DNA from: a bacterium
Lineage (GTDB): Bacteria > Sysuimicrobiota > Sysuimicrobiia > Sysuimicrobiales > Segetimicrobiaceae
Direction of reading: 5' to 3'
DNA length: 41,911 nt
NCBI GenBank assembly: GCA_035295165.1
Contig: DATGJN010000069.1
Location: 1-41,911, forward strand
The stretch's first letter is position 1; every line of letters starts with the position of its first letter. The notes under the pieces were generated by a model. That model was given only the letters and a program-made list of their open reading frames with translations. It had not been told where the DNA came from and made no database searches. Shown here piece after piece: positions 3,227 to 31,971 of the stretch. The position numbers and the translations under genes are program-made.

Positions 3227-3679
3227 ACATGAGACTCCTCGAACGAAAACCTCTCGGACCCGCGCCCGTGCGAGAAGTACGTTCCACAACCGCCCCCCCA
3301 AGGGCCTCCATGAGATCCCGTGCGTTGGTGGCCGCTGCGCTTCGCGTGAAACGACGGTGCGGCACTCACGCGTCACGGCGAAGCAGGACTTTTCGGTCAC
3401 CCCGCGAACACCCGCGATATTGTTGGGGTCGCCGGCTCTCGCGAACGCGCCACCCGCGAACCGACGTGCCCAGGAACCGGCTCCGGGGGTGGTGCAGATG
3501 CATCACGGGACCCTGAGCGCCAGACCGACACCGGGGCACGAGGCTCCGTTGCCGGCCTGCCAGCCCTCTGCCCCAAACCCGCTTCACACCGTGCTAGGCT
3601 GCGCCCGGATTCGTCAACGGTTCGACCGCCACCCCAGTTGCCGTGTCACGTCAAACCATGTTGTGGAGGTGCCGACGCC
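3227..3679. other. Divergent intergenic region, moeA-mobB / formate dehydrogenase
   Basis: These 453 nt separate the start of moeA-mobB (minus) from the start of fdhA (plus) and must hold the promoters of both. I cannot pick out a convincing -35/-10 pair or a known riboswitch. A GGAGGT ribosome binding site for fdhA lies at 3665-3670. Confidence 0.5.
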
Positions 3680-6600
3680 ATGGGCACGCTGACGCGCCGC
3701 GACTTCATCAAACTTACGGCCGCAGGGACCGGGAGCGTTGCGCTTTCGGCGCTCGGGTTCGACCTCGCGCACGCGCAGGCGGTGAAGCAGGAGCTCCGCA
3801 TCGCCGGCGCGGCGGAGATGCACTCGGTGTGTCCCTACTGCGCCGTCGGTTGCGCACTGATTGCGTACACGCGCACGGCTCCGGACGGGACCGCGCAGTT
3901 GCTCCAGATCGAGGGAAATCCGGACAGCCCCATCACGGAGGGCCGGCTCTGTCCCAAAGGCGCGACCGCGATGCAGCTCGCGACGTCAGTCCGCCGGGTG
4001 GATCAGCCGCTCTACCGGGCCTCAGGCGCCACCGCGTGGCAGAAGGTCACCTGGGACTTCGTGCTGGACCGGGTCGCCGGGCACATCAAGGAGTCTCGCG
4101 ACCGAACGTTCGTGACCGAGGACGCGAAGGGGAACGTCGTCAACCGGTGCGATGGCATCGCCTTTGCCGGGGGCGCGACGTTCAGCAACGAAGAGGGGTA
4201 CCTCGCGACCAAGCTCATGCGGGGGCTGGGGGTCGTCTTTATAGAACAGCAGGCCCGTGTTTGACACGGGCCCACGGTGGTCAGTTTGGCCGCCACGTTC
4301 GGAAGAGGGGCAATGACAAATCACTGGAGGGACATCAAGAACGCAGATCTGATCCTCATCAACGGCGCCAATCCCGCGGAAGCCCACCCCGTCGGCTTCC
4401 AGTGGTTCATGCGCGCGAAGCTCGATCCAACGAAGGGGCCGGGGGCAGGCGGCGGGGCGAAGCTCATCCACACCGATCCGCGGTTTACGCGCACGTCGGC
4501 GGTTTCCGACATGCACCTCCGGATCCGAACCGGGACCGACGTCGCCTACTTCGGCGGTCTCATTAACTACATCGTTCAAAATAGCCGCTATCACGCCGAC
4601 TACGTCGTACACTACACGAACGCGTCGTTCATCGTGAAAGACGGCTACAGCTTCCAGGATGGGCTCTTCTCCGGCTACCAGCCCGGCACGCGGTCGTACG
4701 ATCGCGCCACCTGGAGCTATGACACCGACGCGAAGGGGTTCGCCAAACGGGACCTGACCCTGCAGGACCCCCGGTGCGTATTCCAGCTGCTCAAGCAGCA
4801 CTACGCCCGTTACACGCCCGAAGTGGTGTCGTCGATTACGGGAATCCCCCAGGCCGACTTCCTTCGGGTCGCCGAGATGGTGGCGGAGATGGGCCGGCCC
4901 GACAAGGTCATGACGATCGTGTACGCGGTCGGCCTGACGCACCACACGACCGGGACGCAGCTCATCCGGTCGGGCGCGCTGTTGCAGCTGCTCCTCGGCA
5001 ACATCGGCCGACCGGGCGGGGGGATGAATGCCGAGCGGGGTCACGCGAACATCCAGGGCAACACCGACAACGCGATCTCCTGGGACATCCTGCCGGGGTA
5101 CCTTGCGGTGCCGATGCCGGGCGAGAAGACCGTGGACGATTACGTGAAGGTGGCCGCGGCGAAGAAGCTCGATCCAAACTCGTGGAACTTCTTCGGGACC
5201 AACTACCGGAAGTTCATGGTGAGTTTGCTCAAGATGTGGTACCGCGACGCCGCGACGAAGGACAACGACTTCGCGTTCAGCTATCTTCCGAAGCCGGGCG
5301 GGAACGCGTCGTGGATGTCGATCTACGATCAGGCGCTCCGCGGCAAGATGGAGGGCGTGATTCTGTCCGGGATGACGGCGACCAGCATCGGGCCCGACAC
5401 CGCGCAGGTTCTCGAGGCGCTGTCCAAGCTCAAGTGGCTGGTCGTGATGGATCCGTTTCCGACGACCAGCTCCGAGTTCTGGCACGGGCCCGGCATGGAT
5501 CCGAGCAAGATTCAGACCGAGGTCTTCATGCTGCCCTGCACCCACTGGATCGAGAAGGACGGGTCGTTCACCAACAGCGGCCGGTGGGTCCAGTGGAAGG
5601 ACCAAGTCCTTCCGCCGCAGGGGCAGGCGCGGCACGATCATTGGGTGCTGGCCGACCTCTTCCAGCGGGTCAAGAAGCTCTACCAGCAACACGGAGGGGC
5701 GTTCCCCGACCCGATTCAGCACCTGACGACGACCTACAAGGATCCCGTACGGCCCGAACTGGACGAGTTGGCGCAGGAGATGAACGGGAGAGACTTGGTC
5801 ACCGGCAAGCGCCTTGCGACGTTTGCGGCGCTCAAGGACGACGGCACCACCGTGTCCGGCAACTGGATCTACGCTGGGATGTACCCCGAGTCGGGCAATC
5901 TCACGAAGCGCCGCGACGGGGTGCGCAATCCCGCGAAGAACGACCCGACGGGAATGGGGTACTACCCGAACTGGGCCTGGAGCTGGCCGCTCAACCGCCG
6001 CGTGCTCTACAATCGGGCGTCCGCCGATCGTGCGGGCAAGCCCTGGGACCCGAACCGGCCGGGCATTCAGTGGAACGGGACCAAGTGGGTGGGAGACGTG
6101 CCGGACTATCCGCCGGCGATGAACCCCGCGGACCCGAAAGCGTGGCTGCCGTTCATCATGAACGGCGAGGGCGTGGGGCGGCTCTTTAGCAACGCCTTAC
6201 TGGACGGCCCGTTCCCGGAGCACTACGAGCCCGTCGAATCTCCGGTGGACAACCCGCTCCATGCGGCGACGTCGGCGTCGCCTGTTGCGTTTCTGTATGA
6301 CAAGGCAGCCGGCCGCCCGGACCGGTTCGGGACCGCCGCGGAGTACCCTTACGTGGCCACGACGTACCGGCTGACCGAGCACGAGCACTATGTGACGCAG
6401 CAGGTGCCTCATCTCGTGCAGTTGCAGCCCGAGGCGTTTGTCGAGATCCCGGAGGGGCTGGCGACCGAAAAGGCGATCAAGAACGGCGACATGGTCCGCA
6501 TCTCGTCCAAACGCGGGAAGGTGGAAGCGAGGGCGGTCGTCACCAAGCGCCTCGGGGCGCTCCAAGTCGCGGGCAAACAGATCTGGCAGATCGGGATTCC

Positions 6601-6751
6601 CATCCATTGGGGCTTCGTTGGCATTTCGGCAGAGCTGTATCCGGACAAGTCACAGCACTGGCTCGCGAATGCCCTGACGCCGTTCGTCGGCGACGCCAAT
6701 GCGAGGACGCCGGAGTTCAAGGCGTTCCTCGTCAACCTGGAGAGGATGTGA
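3680..6751 (+). CDS. fdhA: Formate dehydrogenase catalytic subunit, selenocysteine-containing, Tat-exported (FdnG/FdoG type)
   Basis: 1023 aa when the in-frame TGA at 4262-4264 is read as selenocysteine (residue 195). Oxidises formate to CO2 at a Mo/W bis-MGD centre. Residues 1-32 form a twin-arginine signal (TRRDFIK, hydrophobic stretch, AHA cleavage region), so the enzyme acts outside the membrane. A [4Fe-4S] motif follows (C51, C54, C58 in CPYCAVGC, then C in GRLCPKG). Flanking the TGA, EQQARV-Sec-HGPTVVSLA matches the Sec position of FdnG-type enzymes, and homology runs through without a shift. The C-terminal part carries the molybdopterin dinucleotide-binding domain. The start is set by GGAGGT 9 nt upstream. 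Length matches the family (about 1015 aa). Its stop codon overlaps the fdhE start (TGATG). Automated annotation would probably split this gene into two pieces at the TGA. Confidence 0.95.
4262..4294 (+). promoter_or_regulatory. UGA selenocysteine codon with candidate bacterial SECIS hairpin (fdhA)
   Basis: After the TGA (4262-4264) come 11 nt, then a 7-bp stem: GGTGGTC (4276-4282) pairs with GGCCGCC (4288-4294), with two G-U pairs, around the 5-nt loop AGTTT. Position and size match bacterial SECIS elements read by SelB. The loop differs from the canonical GGUCU seen in the second formate dehydrogenase of this window. Confidence 0.75.
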
Positions 6752-7641
6752 TGGGCGGTGCCGTGGAGGTCGAGGCACCGTGGGCGGTCCGCAGGAGCCG
6801 GACCGATGCACTGCGGGCGCGCTACCCGTTCGCGGGCGAGATCCTGACCCTCTACGCCGCGCTTCTGGACGTGCAGGAGCCCGCCTACGCGCGGGCGCTG
6901 GCCGCCCGTCCGTCGAGTCCGGCGTCCTACGCGGTCGAACACGTTCTTCCGGCCGTCGTCGGGGTCACCATGGCGCACGGCCCGGCGCACCTCGCCCGGG
7001 CGCTCCGGGATCGGTCCCCTTGGCCCGGCGCGGTGCGGGCGGTGGAGGCGTGGCTCGCGGGCGCCGACCAATCTCCGATTGACCGGTATCTTGCCCGGGC
7101 CGCCGCGGGCCCCGTCCTCGAGGCGCTGACCCAATCCGGGCGCGCGTACCGGGGCGCGGGAGCGCCCGGCGACGGCCCCAGGGACGAGCGTCACTGTCCG
7201 AGCTGCGGCGGGCTGCCGCAGGTCAGCTACCTCGCGCCTCCCGGGGACGATCTCGTGGGCGCGAGGCGGTACCTGGTGTGCGGACGGTGCGCGACGGCGT
7301 GGCCGTACCCGCGTGCGACCTGCGCGGCCTGCGGCGAGCGGGACGGCGCCCGGCTCCCGGTGTACGCGGAGGAGGGTACCGCGGAGGTAGAGACATCCGG
7401 CGGCGTCGTGCGCGGTCTCGCACGTCGTCCCGAGCCCGTCCCGGCGGGCGGCAGCGCACCGAGGTTTCCGCACGTCCGGGTGGAGGCATGCGAGACCTGC
7501 GCCCGGTATCTGCTCGCGATCGACCTCGCGCGCGATCCCCGGGCCGTCCCCGTCGTGGACGAGATGGCGGCGGTGCCGCTCGATTTGTACGCGCAAGAAC
7601 GCGGCCTCTCCAAGATCGTGCCAAACCTGATGGGGGTATGA
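6751..7641 (+). CDS. fdhE: Formate dehydrogenase accessory protein FdhE
   Basis: 296 aa. FdhE is a cytoplasmic rubredoxin-like maturation factor that binds the catalytic subunit of exported formate dehydrogenases. Characteristic CxxC pairs are visible: CPSCGG, CGRC, CAACG and CETC, in the order expected for the iron-binding C-terminal half. The ATG overlaps the fdhA stop as TGATG, implying translational coupling; in-frame upstream sequence lies inside fdhA. The gene sits between the catalytic and iron-sulfur subunit genes, whereas in enterobacteria fdhE follows the structural genes. The first 150 residues are Ala/Arg rich and less conserved. No membrane segment is seen. Confidence 0.9.
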   Translation: MGGAVEVEAPWAVRRSRTDALRARYPFAGEILTLYAALLDVQEPAYARALAARPSSPASYAVEHVLPAVVGVTMAHGPAHLARALRDRSPWPGAVRAVEAWLAGADQSPIDRYLARAAAGPVLEALTQSGRAYRGAGAPGDGPRDERHCPSCGGLPQVSYLAPPGDDLVGARRYLVCGRCATAWPYPRATCAACGERDGARLPVYAEEGTAEVETSGGVVRGLARRPEPVPAGGSAPRFPHVRVEACETCARYLLAIDLARDPRAVPVVDEMAAVPLDLYAQERGLSKIVPNLMGV

Positions 7642-20804: not shown

Positions 20805-21947
20805 CTACCGGTCGGCGAGTTTCCAGAGCGCCTGGAGGCGTGCCTCGAGGTCGGTACGCAGCTGAAGCGGGGTGAGCCGGTGATACTCAGCGGTGAGCGC
20901 GTCGCGTTGTGCTGGAGTGAGGACCTTGCTGGCGAGCAGCCGGCGGTAGGGCGTCTGCGCGCGGTCGTACCGCTTGCGCACCCGGGCGCCGTGGCGCTCT
21001 TTGGAGACGAGTTTGCGGATGGGCTGAAAGAAGTTCACGTAGGGCCGCAGGAGCGCATGCACCACCTTGAGCGCCAGGAAGGCCGCGCGGGTGCAGTAGC
21101 GATCGTACCCGATGAAGCGGCGGAGGACGGAGCCGTTGCGCTGCTCGACGTAGGCCTGATCGTTCTTCCGGTAGGGCCGACCGCGGGTGAAGCCGACGTG
21201 CTCGCGGCGACACCACGGGATGAGGATGTGGTTGAGGAATTCCCCGCCATTATCGGTATGGATGCTCTCCAGGGGGATGGGCAGCGCTTGGCGGATCGCG
21301 TGGACGGCGCTGCCGACGCGTGTCTGGCCCTTGCCCCACACGGCCTGCAGTTCGGTCCACCCGGTGGCGACGTCAATGGCGAGGAGCGAGGTGAGGTAGA
21401 AACCGTACATGCTTTCCCCGCAGTGCGCCAGCAGATCCGCCTGCATGTGGCCCGGGCGGACGTTGCCCCACTCCGTAAACGGGCGCAGCGGTACCTGGGC
21501 GCGCAAGGCGGCGAGGCTGGGGCTGGTCGTGGCGAGGCCGTGGCGTCGGTGCTGCCGGCGCACGGAGTGCAAGAGCCGATCGATGGTGGCGGGACTGATC
21601 TGCTGGAGGGCGGAACGCTGCTCCGCCGAGAGCATCACCTCGTCGTGGCGCTCCAGGGCCGCGATCAGTTCCGGCAGAAAGGGCGCCAAGCGCGTGGAGC
21701 AGAGGTAGTCGCTGGCTTCCCACACCTGCTCCAACGCCGGCCGCAAGGTGCTCAGATACTGTCGGGGGCGGCCGGCCCGACGCCGCGCTCGTTTCGGCGG
21801 GTGCCGCAAGAGCCGGATCGCCACCTTGCGATCGCGATTGGTGAGCCGACAGAACTCATCCAAGCGACGACTCTTATCGCGGCGGGAGGCCAGACGATAC
21901 CGAGGACGAAGGGATGCGGCGTATTCGCGTACACTGTGAGGACCCAC
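20805..21947 (-). CDS. Integrase-core (DDE) transposase
   Basis: 380 aa. The N-terminal part is a helical DNA-binding region (REYAASLRPRYRLASRRDKS, then RLTNRDRKVAIRLLRHPPKR). The central retroviral-integrase-like core carries the catalytic acids: the D of QADLLAHCGES, the D of LESIHTDNGGEF, and the E of KNDQAYVEQRNGS. The GTG start at 21947 has AGGAGG 4 nt upstream; the frame stays open beyond it to an ATG at 22115, but that would run through the IS end and into the tRNA-Asp region. It appears intact, so the element could still be active. Confidence 0.88.
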   Translation of the reverse strand: MGPHSVREYAASLRPRYRLASRRDKSRRLDEFCRLTNRDRKVAIRLLRHPPKRARRRAGRPRQYLSTLRPALEQVWEASDYLCSTRLAPFLPELIAALERHDEVMLSAEQRSALQQISPATIDRLLHSVRRQHRRHGLATTSPSLAALRAQVPLRPFTEWGNVRPGHMQADLLAHCGESMYGFYLTSLLAIDVATGWTELQAVWGKGQTRVGSAVHAIRQALPIPLESIHTDNGGEFLNHILIPWCRREHVGFTRGRPYRKNDQAYVEQRNGSVLRRFIGYDRYCTRAAFLALKVVHALLRPYVNFFQPIRKLVSKERHGARVRKRYDRAQTPYRRLLASKVLTPAQRDALTAEYHRLTPLQLRTDLEARLQALWKLADR

Positions 21948-21974
21948 GTTGCCTCCTGGGCGCCGATGACCGGC

Positions 21975-22020
21975 ATTTTGAGGCAACAGTTCTCCCTTCG
22001 GTGTCGAGAATTTTGAGGCA
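21975..22020. repeat. Right end of the IS (two terminal motifs)
   Basis: ATTTTGAGGCA at 21975-21985 and again at 22010-22020, 35 nt apart in the same orientation. They are inverted relative to the two left-end copies. The first lies just upstream of the transposase RBS. Confidence 0.7.
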
Positions 22021-22087
22021 CTTCGGCGTATTGACAGGGTGGGGATCGGGCCGTAGACTGCTTGATGGCGGGAGTGCCGCCCATCGT

Positions 22088-22166
22088 GGGGGCGTGGTGT
22101 AGCCTGGTTTAACACACCTGCCTGTCACGCAGGAGATCGCGGGTTCAAATCCCGTCGCTCCCGCCA
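22088..22166 (+). tRNA. tRNA-Asp (GTC)
   Basis: Acceptor GGGGGCG (22088-22094) pairs with CGCTCCC (22156-22162), followed by discriminator G and an encoded CCA. The anticodon arm CCTGC-CTGTCAC-GCAGG gives GTC. The T arm GCGGG-TTCAAAT-CCCGT is normal. Its 3' half is duplicated 3.5 kb downstream, which marks it as an integration target. Confidence 0.95.
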
Positions 22167-24908: not shown

Positions 24909-25316
24909 CTAGAACGAGGCGCTCGTCTGCGTGCTCCCATCGCTACTCAACGTCAAGGTCATCGACTGACCCGCGACCGGCGTACCGGTGGTCCCGATCG
25001 CGGTTGCGACAACGCTCGCCGCCGTGCCCGTGCCCACGGAGTACGTCCAGTTGGCGTTGCCCGGTTGGGTAAAACCGATCGACGGAAGCGTCCCGTTCAC
25101 GAACGTGTTGTACTGCTGGTAGTAGGCCCACTCCATCGTTTTGATCTCCTGCAGTGCGTTGCTGGCCTCGGCCTTGTAGGCCTTCTGGCGAGCACCCAGG
25201 TACAGCGGCACCGCCGCCGCGATCAGAATGCCGATGATCGCGAGGACGACAACCAACTCGATTAGGGTGAAGCCCCGATCTTCCTGCCGGATCTTCTCGT
25301 GCAGCCACTCGAACAT
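24909..25316 (-). CDS. Type IV prepilin / pseudopilin-like protein
   Basis: 135 aa. Leader of 14 residues (MFEWLHEKIRQEDR) ending in the prepilin peptidase site G|FTLIELVVVLAIIGILIAAAVP, with the conserved Glu at +5 of the mature protein. The hydrophobic helix is followed by a helical YLGARQKAYKAEASNALQEI segment and a Thr/Ser/Gly-rich globular tail lacking the cysteine pair of classical pilins. The start ATG 25316 has GGGGGGAG upstream. It would need a prepilin peptidase and assembly ATPase, neither of which is encoded here. It stands alone next to the island's right end. Confidence 0.9.
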   Translation of the reverse strand: MFEWLHEKIRQEDRGFTLIELVVVLAIIGILIAAAVPLYLGARQKAYKAEASNALQEIKTMEWAYYQQYNTFVNGTLPSIGFTQPGNANWTYSVGTGTAASVVATAIGTTGTPVAGQSMTLTLSSDGSTQTSASF

Positions 25317-27401: not shown

Positions 27402-28253
27402 CTAGGCGTTGCCCTTCCCATCGGGGGCGTCCGGCCGGACGTAAGTGAACCCGAACCGTCCCTTCACGCAGAGGTGTCCTCGCGTCACGTCATGGTCTGC
27501 GGGGGACGTGACCTTGACGATCCGGTTGTCCTGGACGTGCAGCTCGACGGCGCAGCCGACGCCGCAGTACGGGCAGATCGTGCCCGCCACGTGCTGCCGG
27601 CTCTCGTCCCATTCGTGGGCCCGCCGCATACGGTGTTCGATCAGCGGCATCAGCGCGCCGGTTGGACACACGGCCACGCAGTTGCCGCAGAAGACGCACC
27701 GCGAGTCGAGCAGCGGCGCATCCGCGCCGGTGTCGATGCGCGCGCTGAACCCCCGGCCGGCGACCGAGAGTGCGAAGGTAAACTGGGCGTCCTCGCCACA
27801 CGCCTCCACGCACTTGTAGCACAGAATGCACTTGTCGTATTCGCGCACATAGAGGTCGTTGTCGTCGCGCAGCGGCTCTTCCACCCGGCGTACGTCGGTC
27901 CCGAAGCGCGCGGGGTTCCCATGGTACTCCGCGAGATAGGCTTCGAGCGCCGGTGCGGTCGACGTGTCCACCGACGAGGCCAGCAGTTCCAGCACGACCT
28001 TTCGCGCCCGCCGCACCCGCTCCGTGGCTGTGCGTACCTTCATACCCGCCTCGACTCGGCGGGAGCAGGACGGCACGAGCGCGCGGCTGCCGTCGAGCTC
28101 CACCACGCACGCCCGACAGACGTTGACCGGCGTCAGGTTGGGATGGTAGCAGAGTGTGGGCGCGTCCATGCCCGCGCGTCGCAGCGCTTGGAGGATCGTC
28201 ATCCCATCCTCCGCGTCAATCGGATGCCCGTCGACCTCGATGGCCACGCTCAC
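27402..28253 (-). CDS. fdhA-N: Formate dehydrogenase alpha chain, N-terminal iron-sulfur part (separate polypeptide)
   Basis: 283 aa, all cluster-binding. Residues 1-75: a NuoG-like [2Fe-2S] domain (C35, C46, C49, C63). Residues 138-205: two [4Fe-4S] ferredoxin motifs (C142/C145/C148/C152 and C186/C189/C192/C196). Residues 225-272: the molybdopterin-oxidoreductase Fe4S4 domain (C227, C230, C234, C262, then VKGRFGF). In usual NAD-linked enzymes these domains run directly into the catalytic domain in one chain; here the protein stops just after that point. The catalytic remainder is encoded three genes upstream (30007-31971). The start is GTG 28253, overlapping the stop of the FdsB/NuoF-like gene (GTGA). 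It is the last gene of the operon. Confidence 0.88.
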   Translation of the reverse strand: MSVAIEVDGHPIDAEDGMTILQALRRAGMDAPTLCYHPNLTPVNVCRACVVELDGSRALVPSCSRRVEAGMKVRTATERVRRARKVVLELLASSVDTSTAPALEAYLAEYHGNPARFGTDVRRVEEPLRDDNDLYVREYDKCILCYKCVEACGEDAQFTFALSVAGRGFSARIDTGADAPLLDSRCVFCGNCVAVCPTGALMPLIEHRMRRAHEWDESRQHVAGTICPYCGVGCAVELHVQDNRIVKVTSPADHDVTRGHLCVKGRFGFTYVRPDAPDGKGNA

Positions 28254-29476
28254 GCCGATCCCCCCCGCATGAGCGTCAGGGCGCTGAGCACCGCTCCGGA
28301 CGCCGTTTGTCCCAGCCCGCAGATGGACGCGTCGGTCATTGCCGCGCCGATTTCCTCCAAAAGCTCCGCGTCCCCCGGTTTCGCCCTCCCGGAGGCGAGA
28401 CGCTCGACGATCTCCCACTGACGCTGCGTGCCCACGCGGCAGGGAACGCACTGGCCGCACGATTCCTCCTGGAAGAAGCGGGCCACGCGCAGCACGACGT
28501 CCCAGAGCGGTGCCGTGTCGTCCAGCACGATCACCGCGCCCGAACCGATCGTTCCCCCGAGGGTCCGCAGGTCCTCGAACGTCAGCGGCACGTCCAGGCG
28601 CTCCGGGCCCAGGAACGTGCCGGCCGCGCCGCCGCACAGGACGGCTTGGAGGCGGCGCCCCTGCCAAACACCCCCGGCCAGGGAGAGTAGCGCGCGCAGC
28701 GTGGTACCGAACGGCACTTCGTACAACCCGGGCCGCTCGACGTGGCCGCTGACGCAGAAGAGCTTCGTGCCCGTGGATCGGTCGGTGCCGTAGCGCCGAA
28801 AGCCGGCCGCGCCGTCCCGCAGCACCAGGGGGACGTTGCAGAGCGTCTCGACATTGTTCACCAGCGTCGGGTCGCCGAACAGGCCTGCCTGTGTGGGGAA
28901 CGGAGGCTTGTTGCGCGGTTCGCCGCGCCGGCCCTCGGCCGAGTTGAAGAGCGCAGTTTCCTCCCCGCAGATGTACGCGCCGGCACCGCGAAAAATCCGG
29001 ATGCGAAACTCCCGCCCCGAACCCGCCGTGTTGGCGCCCACAATTCCCGCATCCTGCGCCTGCTTGATCGCACGTTGGAGGCGGTCGGCGGCGAGGCGGT
29101 ACTCGCCCCGGACGTAGACGAGCCCGTCTTCGGCCCCAACGGTCAACCCGGCGATCGTCATCGCCTCAACGATCGCGAACGGGTCTTCTTCCATCAGCAC
29201 CCGGTCCTTGAAGGTGCCGGGCTCGCTCTCGTCGGCGTTGCAAACGACGCGCCGACGTCCGCGCGCGCCTGCGACCGCGCGCCACTTGCGGCCTGCGGGA
29301 AACGCCGCGCCGCCCCGCCCGAGCAGGCCCGACGCCTCCAGCTCAGAGAGGACCCACTCCGGGCCAGCCTGGACGGCTTTCGTCAGCGCCTCCCAGCCGT
29401 GCGCGCGCCGGTAGTCCTCCAGGCTCTCGGGATCGGCGACGCCGACCCGCGCGAGCAGCCGCCGCACTTCAGGCAT
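28250..29476 (-). CDS. fdhB2: NAD-linked formate dehydrogenase beta subunit (NuoF/FdsB-like)
   Basis: 408 aa FMN- and NAD-binding flavoprotein subunit. Visible motifs: GLLGRGGAAFPAGRKW (FMN/NADH fold), CNADESEPGTFKDR, AYICGEETALFNS, PPFPTQAGLFGDPTLVNNVE, and the [4Fe-4S] site ESCGQCVPCRVGT. It lacks the N-terminal thioredoxin-like extension that some fused homologues carry; that part is a separate gene here. The ATG at 29476 overlaps the end of the upstream NuoE-like gene by 8 nt. Passes electrons from the alpha-chain clusters to NAD(P). Cofactor preference (NAD or NADP) is not decided by sequence. Confidence 0.92.
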   Translation of the reverse strand: MPEVRRLLARVGVADPESLEDYRRAHGWEALTKAVQAGPEWVLSELEASGLLGRGGAAFPAGRKWRAVAGARGRRRVVCNADESEPGTFKDRVLMEEDPFAIVEAMTIAGLTVGAEDGLVYVRGEYRLAADRLQRAIKQAQDAGIVGANTAGSGREFRIRIFRGAGAYICGEETALFNSAEGRRGEPRNKPPFPTQAGLFGDPTLVNNVETLCNVPLVLRDGAAGFRRYGTDRSTGTKLFCVSGHVERPGLYEVPFGTTLRALLSLAGGVWQGRRLQAVLCGGAAGTFLGPERLDVPLTFEDLRTLGGTIGSGAVIVLDDTAPLWDVVLRVARFFQEESCGQCVPCRVGTQRQWEIVERLASGRAKPGDAELLEEIGAAMTDASICGLGQTASGAVLSALTLMRGGSA

Positions 29477-30017
29477 CGCCGGTCCCCGTGGCTGCGGCGG
29501 CCGCGATCTCCTCGAGCGTGGCGCGCCGATGCACGCAGCCGTTGACAACGGCCACCGGCGCGTCCTCGCACCGGCCGAGGCAGGGAACCGTCTCCCAGTC
29601 GAGCGGCGGGACGTGACCGCTCGCCGACATTCCGTGGGGCGCGGCGTCATGAGCCTCGCCGGTGAACCGTCGGGGCGGGCCGTATGCGGCCTCGAACCGC
29701 CGGAGCAGCGAATCCGCGCCGCGGAGGCGGCACGGCACATCGTCGCAGACGTGGACGACCACCCCGCGGGGCGGGTCGAGACGGAACAGCGCGTAGAAGG
29801 TGACGACCCCCCAGACGTCGGGGAAGGGCAGGTTCATCCGGTCTGCCAAGTGATGCAGGGCGCCCTGGGGAAGCCACCCGAGATCGTCTTGGAGTGCGTG
29901 GAGCAGGGGGAGCAGGTCCGACCGCTGCGGCTCGGCGCCCAAGCGGGCGAGCGCGCGGTCGACCGCCGCGCGCTCCCGCTCGGGAGCACGCGCCGAATGG
30001 CTGCGTTCAATCGGCAT
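29469..30017 (-). CDS. fdhG2: NAD-linked formate dehydrogenase gamma subunit (NuoE/FdsG-like)
   Basis: 182 aa thioredoxin-fold [2Fe-2S] protein. A helical N-terminal half (LLPLLHALQDDLGWLPQGAL, WGVVTFYALF) is followed by the four ligands in HVCDDVPC and PCLGRC. The second cysteine pair is preceded by a longer His/Pro-rich insert than in NuoE. The start ATG 30017 overlaps the 3' end of the catalytic gene by 11 nt. Together with the NuoF-like subunit it forms the diaphorase module of the enzyme. Confidence 0.9.
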   Translation of the reverse strand: MPIERSHSARAPERERAAVDRALARLGAEPQRSDLLPLLHALQDDLGWLPQGALHHLADRMNLPFPDVWGVVTFYALFRLDPPRGVVVHVCDDVPCRLRGADSLLRRFEAAYGPPRRFTGEAHDAAPHGMSASGHVPPLDWETVPCLGRCEDAPVAVVNGCVHRRATLEEIAAAAATGTGDA

Positions 30018-31971
30018 GAGCCTCCGTCTCCTCTCCCAACCGGTCCTCGCCCCACGTTCCGCGCGGCGCGACCCGTTCGACCGCGATCGCCGTGGCTTTG
30101 AACTCGGCCGTGCCAGACTTAGGGTCCCAGGCGTCGATCGTCAACACGTTCGTGGGTATGATGTCCGGGTGGTGCAGCGTCATGAAGCAGAGGCCGGGCG
30201 CGAGGGTCTCGTCCGGTTTGGCTGGCAGGAGCAGCGATGCGCGCCGGGATCGAACGCGCACCAGGTCGCCCTCCTCGATACCGAGCCGCCGCGCATCCTC
30301 GGGCCAGATGCACAGGAATTCCATCTGGGGCCGGGGCGCCGCGTAGCCGCGCGACTGCGTGCCGGTATTGTAGAACTCCAGCTTGCGGCCCGTAGTGAGG
30401 AGGAAGGGATATGCTTCGTCAGGCTGCTCCACCGGCGGCTCCCAGTCCACCGGCATCAGCGGGGCGCGGCGGCCCTGCACCGGCCGGAGCCAGAGGCGTT
30501 CGTGGAGGAACTTGCTGCCGGGGTCGTCCTCGTCGACACACGGCCACTGCAATCCGTCGGACCCCGCCAGCCGCGTGTACGACATCCCCCGGTGCCTCGC
30601 GGAGAGACGCCGGACTTCGTTCCAGACGTCCTCGGCGCACGTATAGCCCCAGTCGTGGCCCATCCGCCCGGCCACGTCCTGGAGGATGAAGATGTCGTCG
30701 CGTGCCTCTCCCGGGGGATCGACGGCCTTGCGCATCAGCTGCACCCGCCGCTCGGAGTTGGTCACGGTGCCCTCGCATTCGCACCACGACAGCGCCGAGG
30801 GCAGGACGACGTCGGCGATCTCTGCGGTCTGGTTGAGGGCGATGTCCTGGAAGACGACGAAGTCGAGGCTTCCCAGCAACTCGCGGCTCCGCTTCTGGTT
30901 GGCTTCCGACATCAACGGGTTTTCGCCGATGACGTATGCGGCGCGGATCTTGCCGTTCTCCATGTCCTCGAACATCTGGCTCTGGTGACGCCCGCGTTTT
31001 GGCGGCAGCGTGACACCCCAGGCCGCCTCGAACGGCGCGCGCTGCGCAGGGTCCTCCAGGTCCGCACCGCCGGGCAGGCGGTTCGGCACCGCGCCCATGT
31101 CGCCTCCGCCCTGCACGTTGTTCTGGCCGCGCAACGGGTCGAGACCCGAGCCGTAGCGACCGACGTGCCCGGTGAGGTTCGCCAGGTTGCAGAGGGCGTA
31201 GACGCCGTCGGTCGCGTTGTGGTGCTCGGTGATACCCAGCGTCCAGCAGATGATCGCGCGCGGCGCCGCAGCGTACATCCGGGCGATCCGTCGGATCGTC
31301 TCTGCCGGCACGCCACTCACCCGCTCGGCGAACTCGGTGGTGTACGTCGCGATGTTCTCACGATAGCCGTCCAGGCCGTGCGTGGCGTGCTCGATGAACT
31401 CACGGTGCTGCAGTCCTTCATCGAGGATCACCCGCCCGATCGCGTTGGCGAGCGCGATGTCGGCGCCGACACGGATCTGCAGATGAACGTGCGCCAGTTG
31501 CGCCGTCGGCGTCCGCCGCGGGTCGACGACGATGAGGCGCGCTCCGTTGCGCATCCCCCGGAGCATGTGATGGAACATGATCGGGTGCGTTTCGCGCGGA
31601 TTGGAGCCCCAGAGGAAGAGCAGATCGGTCCGCTCCATCTCTTCATACGAGGTCGTGCCGCCCCCTGCGCCGTAGACCGTCTCCAGACCGGAGACGCTGG
31701 GCGCGTGTCAGGTGCGGTTGCAGCTGTCGATGTTGTTGGTGCCGATCACCGTCCGCATGAACTTCTGGGCGACGAAGTTCATCTCGTTGGAGGCCTTGGA
31801 ACAACTGAAGCAACAGAACGCGTCCGGTCCGTGAGCCCGCCGGATTTCCTCGAAACGCCGCGCCACGTGATCGAGCGCGTCGTTCCAGGTCGCCCGCTCG
31901 AGAGCGCCGGCCCTCCGGATCAGAGGGTGCGTCAACCGCGCCGACGGTCGCTGATAGCCTCGTGCTGGCAT
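30007..31971 (-). CDS. fdhA2: Formate dehydrogenase catalytic subunit lacking its N-terminal Fe4S4 domain, selenocysteine-containing
   Basis: 654 aa with the TGA at 31708-31710 read as selenocysteine (residue 88). The chain starts RLTHPLIRRAGALERATWND, where a normal enzyme has already passed the Fe4S4 domain; then DSCNRT-Sec-HAPSVSGL gives the active site, and GSNPRETHP, ARMYAAAPRAIICWTLGITE and LANLTGHVGRYGSGLDPLRG are bis-MGD domain blocks. The C-terminus holds the dinucleotide-binding domain (LLTTGRKLEFYNTGTQSRG, MTLHHPD). ATG 31971 has GGAGGTG upstream, so this is a true gene start, not a truncation. Predicted cytosolic; no Tat signal. A naive annotation would start it at 31638 and lose the active site. 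Confidence 0.93.
31678..31710 (-). promoter_or_regulatory. UGA selenocysteine codon with canonical SECIS hairpin (fdhA2)
   Basis: On the minus strand, TGA (31710-31708) is followed after 11 nt by the stem CGTCTCC (31696-31690), the loop GGTCT, and the pairing strand GGAGACG (31684-31678). This perfect 7-bp stem with a GGUCU loop is the same loop sequence as in E. coli fdhF. Confidence 0.9.

Follow-up and report, generated by a model that had tools for sequence, protein, structure and literature searches.

The closest described relatives of the locus treated here are the NAD-linked formate dehydrogenases (FDHs) FdsABG(D) of R. capsulatus (6tg9) and FDH1 of Methylorubrum (7vw6). They share with it the domain set, the NuoE/NuoF diaphorase subunits and, probably, the chain of cofactors, but unite the HoxU-like region, the Fe4S4 domain and the catalytic domains in one alpha chain of about 950-990 amino acids (aa), where two chains are found here. 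The alpha gene of these systems is located after the genes for the NuoE- and NuoF-like subunits. Short FdhF-type enzymes (E. coli FDH-H and the hydrogen-dependent CO2 reductase, HDCR) share the catalytic fold, the active-site selenocysteine (Sec) and a selenocysteine insertion sequence (SECIS) in the gene, as exemplified by the SECIS loop of E. coli fdhF, but carry Fe4S4 at their own N-terminus. According to a structural study, the proximal cluster of every bacterial FDH resides on the subunit containing the bis-molybdopterin guanine dinucleotide (bis-MGD) (PMC7171172). Our locus resides on contig DATGJN010000069.1 (41,911 nucleotides, the whole of which is termed the window) of a Segetimicrobiaceae bacterium from the Sysuimicrobiota (assembly GCA_035295165.1; 4.79 Mb in 121 pieces). 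It very probably encodes a cytoplasmic NAD(H)-linked, Sec-containing FDH of the Mo/W-bis-pyranopterin guanine dinucleotide (bisPGD) type that consists of four chains encoded in the order catalytic subunit-NuoE-NuoF-G and whose alpha chain was divided once, by a cut in a linker and a rotation of gene order. The N-terminal half of the alpha chain, a protein in its own right here, is referred to as G.

All four genes are transcribed from the minus strand and consecutive genes overlap at their ends. The catalytic subunit (654 aa; 31971-30007) comprises MopB/FdhF-like Mo/W-bisPGD domains. Its gene end is overlapped by the start of the gene for the NuoE/FdsG-like [2Fe-2S] subunit with thioredoxin fold (182 aa; 30017-29469; PF01257, 99 bits), which in turn shares 8 nucleotides with the gene for the NuoF/FdsB-like subunit for flavin mononucleotide (FMN), NAD(H) and a 4Fe-4S cluster (408 aa; 29476-28250; PF01512, PF10531 and PF10589; TIGR01959, 454.7 bits). 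The last gene overlaps nuoF by 4 nucleotides, starts with GTG and encodes G (283 aa; 28253-27402) with a [2Fe-2S] domain (Fer2_4, PF13510), a ferredoxin-type 4Fe-4S domain (Fer4, PF00037) and a Mo-type Fe4S4 domain (Molybdop_Fe4S4, PF04879; motif CPYCGVGC...CVKG). HoxU/NuoG-N-type clusters, NuoE and NuoF are thus all encoded in one operon, as in FdsA-type enzymes, whereas the single alpha chain of about 940 aa is represented by two genes with nuoE and nuoF between them, the products of which add up to 283 + 654 = 937 aa. On the TIGR01591 (Fdh-alpha) profile, G covers positions 1-49 and the catalytic protein positions 51-672, such that the two tile the family with neither gap nor overlap and match its full length (1-672) jointly, not individually. 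Coordinates, order, sizes and domain content put forward in the original prediction, which was made from the sequence letters, agree with these Pfam and TIGR01591 results, and its assumption of one NAD-linked enzyme is supported. The end of the N-terminal protein, placed directly after VKGRFGF, has to be corrected, as it lies about 15 residues further downstream. The original prediction did not mention that the catalytic frame holds a Sec codon with a SECIS, that the arrangement is widespread, that the catalytic clade has a single origin or that the gene order can be read as a rotation.

Pfam analysis of the catalytic protein revealed Molybdopterin (PF00384) and Molydop_binding (PF01568) domains but no Fe4S4 domain (PF04879), placing the domain for the proximal [4Fe-4S] cluster outside the catalytic chain. 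As had been predicted, the gene starts past the Fe4S4 region with its own ribosome-binding site, GGAGG upstream of the ATG, and an in-frame TGA two codons 5' of the start leaves no room for an N-terminal extension. Compared with E. coli FdhF, the cut falls into the linker after KGYYGWDFI and before PRLKTPMIRR. An AlphaFold model of the catalytic chain alone (mean predicted local distance difference test, pLDDT, 82) superimposes on E. coli FdhF (1fdi) with a template modelling (TM) score of 0.88, so that in silico the chain folds like FdhF minus its N-terminal domain. In G, the ligands C227, C230, C234 and C262 as well as K264 are invariant among 51 G proteins and the CxxCxxxC...CxKG pattern is kept in 75 of 76 relatives, the lone exception being truncated by a contig end. 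The best matches of G among solved structures are the N-termini of the single-chain FDHs 7vw6, 9wxb and 6tg9, and its modest AlphaFold model (TM 0.71 to both 6tg9 and 9ktl) is suggestive of a resemblance to the FdsA N-terminus.

One could argue that the protein is not an FDH but another NAD-coupled MopB enzyme, e.g. a relative of assimilatory nitrate reductase, given that its TIGR01591 score of 657.7 stays just below the cut-off of 666.25 (rounded, 666) and that NasC is the second-ranked model in the NCBIfam scan. The low score is accounted for by profile positions 1-50 residing on the other protein. The active-site pair Sec/Cys88-His89 (NRT-C/U-H) and Arg281 (RGQNNVQGG) are invariant in 34 aligned relatives, the top matches are all FDHs, and genes for formate-tetrahydrofolate ligase and FdhD are neighbors in relatives (18 and 27 of 80 loci, respectively), making a function other than FDH very unlikely. 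In a Limnochordaceae metagenome-assembled genome (L013:717-12385), the next gene after the split FDH operon is selA, and genes for the RuBisCO large chain and a protein of the phosphoribulokinase family are located upstream.

The frame 30007-31971 is open only when an in-frame TGA at codon 88 (31710-31708, minus strand) is read as Sec. It is embedded in the motif NRT-U-HAPSVSGL, at the same position as Sec in E. coli FdhF. In relatives, the corresponding codon is TGA in 70 of 80 cases and encodes Cys in the remaining 10, most of which are isolates of Nocardiopsis or related organisms; Cys is also the active-site residue of the R. capsulatus enzyme, in contrast to Sec here. A hairpin of the bacterial SECIS type spans 31657-31710 (minus strand; 54 bases from the TGA) with a GUCUCC/GGAGAC stem and a GGUCU apical loop. 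The loop, which includes a free third-codon position, occurs in all 75 Sec copies and in none of the 10 Cys copies, and the stem has changed on both sides with pairing retained. The fold energy by itself is unremarkable (minimum free energy z-score of -1.2), and it is conservation, not fold energy, on which the SECIS call is based. The genome encodes SelB and tRNA-Sec together with FdhD. With an in-frame TGA followed by a SECIS and this decoding machinery, what is expected of a bacterial selenoprotein gene is found, and on these sequence features codon 88 is a Sec codon.

A standard open reading frame (ORF) caller breaks the catalytic gene at this TGA, and the window is one 41.9-kb contig (C69) of a genome in 121 pieces, so that TGA and split could both be regarded as damage to an ordinary fdsA gene through misassembly or decay. 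We consider the relatives decisive. Among 80 public loci, 75 were long enough to include G, and all 75 contain it as a separate gene, in line with the proposal that an FdsA-type alpha chain is naturally split here. The order catalytic subunit-NuoE-NuoF-G is found in 74 of the 75 and in nine more operons from whole genomes (two of them on the same contigs as L009 and L014), which answers the suggestion that split and order be looked for in related genomes. NuoE and NuoF share a single open frame in 75 of 79 loci having both, and G is fused to NuoF in none. Hosts of the split operon belong to at least eight phyla, among them Bacillota, Chloroflexota, Actinomycetota, Acidobacteriota, Planctomycetota, Gemmatimonadota, Dormiibacterota and Vulcanimicrobiota, and include Nocardiopsis eucommiae with a complete isolate chromosome (L056; G match in two pieces). 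In a set of 386 genomes, made up of relatives of the host and a spread across the domain, 11 hold members of the split clade at no less than 54% identity, and no continuous alpha chain was detected in any relative at or above this value. Orthologues in sister genomes are 82-85% identical with intact frames, TGA is confined to one codon and the SECIS loop is fixed at synonymous sites. Since the same split and order recur across eight or more phyla and on the complete chromosome of an isolate, misassembly is excluded, and the relatives likewise rule out a pseudogene; we assign damage of either kind practically no probability. By the comparison of these loci, the split is a genuine and old variant of a known enzyme.

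How did the split arise? All 29 split catalytic chains fall into a single clade (29/29; Shimodaira-Hasegawa-like approximate likelihood ratio test, SH-aLRT, 100), pointing at a single origin. Below this clade there is a sharp identity gap: the next homologues share 34-44% (about 42% for the nearest). For the most part they are continuous chains of some 900 aa, or shorter ones (about 690 aa) that, where checked, have an Fe4S4 domain of their own. In searches beyond the split clade, G is most similar to the N-termini of single-chain FDHs (44-48% identity, 227-233 bits), which outrank NuoG and hydrogenase relatives such as HydA. Single-chain loci are arranged NuoF-[G-catalytic] (L106, L108-L113), reminiscent of NuoE-NuoF-NuoG in complex I (L150). 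Comparison of this order with catalytic-NuoE-NuoF-G therefore indicates a rotation in which the catalytic piece came to the front while NuoE, NuoF and the N-terminal piece stayed. The N-terminal half is indeed encoded last, as originally stated, though judged by gene order the piece that moved is the catalytic gene and not the N-terminal half. The host genome yielded no second, complete single-chain alpha of an NAD-type FDH that could use these subunits; the only other full match to G is complex I nuoG on contig C35 in an intact nuo operon.

It is conceivable, though rather improbable, that the four-chain enzyme never had a single alpha chain and that an FdhF-like catalytic subunit instead lost its Fe4S4 domain after pairing with an Fe4S4-bearing HoxU/NuoG-like diaphorase subunit. 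In phmmer searches, the catalytic part is closer to FdhF-type (483 and 476 bits) than to FdsA-type chains (416-424 bits), and NuoG also carries this Fe4S4 domain. A pair of this kind exists in locus L160 (G208:C1:110300-113300), where a 215-aa HoxU-like frame lies beside an FdhF-type chain and the N-terminal diaphorase part is separate, as here; there, though, the break is placed on the opposite side of Fe4S4, and this domain remains on the catalytic chain instead of residing on G. The similarity of G to single-chain FDH N-termini and not to NuoG or HydA, and the agreement of the F-[G-cat] order of single-chain operons with F-G in our locus, speak against such an independently assembled pair. 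A MopB catalytic unit encoded by two genes also occurs in formylmethanofuran dehydrogenase (FwdB/FwdD), but the separated domain differs, as it is the C-terminal dinucleotide-binding domain there.

In the preferred reading, fission of a single alpha chain, the ancestral order would have been NuoE-NuoF-[N-cat]. The cut would have fallen in the linker that joins Fe4S4 to the first catalytic domain, with the catalytic gene coming to lie ahead of the NuoE-NuoF-N block. G would dock non-covalently on the catalytic subunit, supplying the proximal [4Fe-4S] cluster and the adjacent CxKG lysine. Formate may be oxidized at the Se-Mo/W site and electrons passed to the proximal Fe4S4 on G, onward via its ferredoxin clusters and its [2Fe-2S] to the NuoF cluster, FMN and finally NAD+, a path modelled after the R. 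capsulatus FDH (PMC7171172). The path may also run in reverse, toward CO2 reduction, as sequence does not tell the direction. FdhD and SelA/B/C would serve production and maturation of the catalytic chain. Several points weigh against this picture. The complex, its cofactor content and its activity are predictions from the genes, and the AlphaFold models are single chains with the docking interface outside them, the one for G being moderate (mean pLDDT 71, below 50 in the ferredoxin part). Root support in the catalytic tree amounts to 5%, and the G tree is noisy (79 for the split clade, with one long outgroup row nearby); fission as opposed to an independently assembled pair is therefore based on similarity and domain logic. 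The mirror-tree distance correlation between catalytic subunit and G (0.68) hardly exceeds that between catalytic subunit and NuoF (0.66) and is uninformative.

The original prediction went further and had the active site with its proximal cluster assemble from two polypeptides. The split and the tiling on which this builds are seen, and it is a strong inference that the Mo/W site and its proximal cluster are put together from two chains. The accompanying idea of an exchangeable catalytic part draws little support from the relatives, nearly all of which keep the pieces together in one order; the sole uncoupled case is L082 (3237-7857), where the catalytic gene, still a neighbor of the intact NuoE-NuoF-G block, is oriented divergently from it. 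It is a tentative proposal, and one that may well not hold, that the metal-pterin site and the proximal [4Fe-4S] cluster of this widespread MopB enzyme require docking of two separately made proteins for their completion, with NuoE-NuoF-G as a stand-alone diaphorase accepting different catalytic subunits. If true, it would contradict the rule, as generally stated, that the bis-MGD subunit of FDHs holds the proximal cluster.

Similar clusters have surfaced before. FDHs with Sec and synteny with NuoEFG homologues were described for Sulfobacillus in 2014 (PMC4378227), and fdhA was noted beside nuoG, hoxF and hoxE in a Chloroflexi metagenome-assembled genome from Lost City in 2020 (PMC7117926). 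Likened by gene descriptions and not by sequences, these probably represent the same arrangement; the portions describing the clusters list the genes without remarking that the proximal Fe4S4 has left the catalytic chain (PMC4378227; PMC7117926). The open-access literature searched, with subscription papers outside its scope, contains no mention of the proximal cluster domain on another chain. Structural work assigns the proximal [4Fe-4S] to the Mo/W subunit of FDHs (e.g. PMC7171172), and the natural split lies precisely at that border. It offers a system for asking whether pterin insertion and catalysis depend on the proximal cluster, and a way to couple other electron-transfer modules to a CO2/formate catalyst that contains Sec. 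Caution is advised in annotation: standard calls break the gene at the TGA and its partner can be labelled NuoG, and counts of the enzyme may therefore be too low in Actinomycetota, Chloroflexota, Dormiibacterota and Planctomycetota.

A promoter scan found nothing, and an Rfam scan of the window returned two tRNAs and nothing else. Elsewhere in the window, a transposase-like gene with an rve domain (20805-22115, minus strand; weak Pfam match) adjoins tRNA-Asp (22088-22166), and the protein encoded at 24909-25316 (minus strand) has an N-terminus resembling that of type IV pilins (GFTLIELVVVLAIIGIL). Judged by eye from translations, a second Mo/W FDH, of the FdnG/FdoG type and likewise containing an in-frame TGA (ARV-U-HGPTV), is present at 3640-7000 (plus strand), followed by FdhE-like, 4Fe-4S FdnH-like and NrfD-like frames, with MoeA/MobB-like genes on the opposite strand. 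Seven single-frame matches to Mo-bisPGD oxidoreductases of about 800-880 aa, several in adjacent sets, are distributed over four further contigs of the host (C2, C22, C96 and C104), pointing at many molybdoenzymes in one genome.

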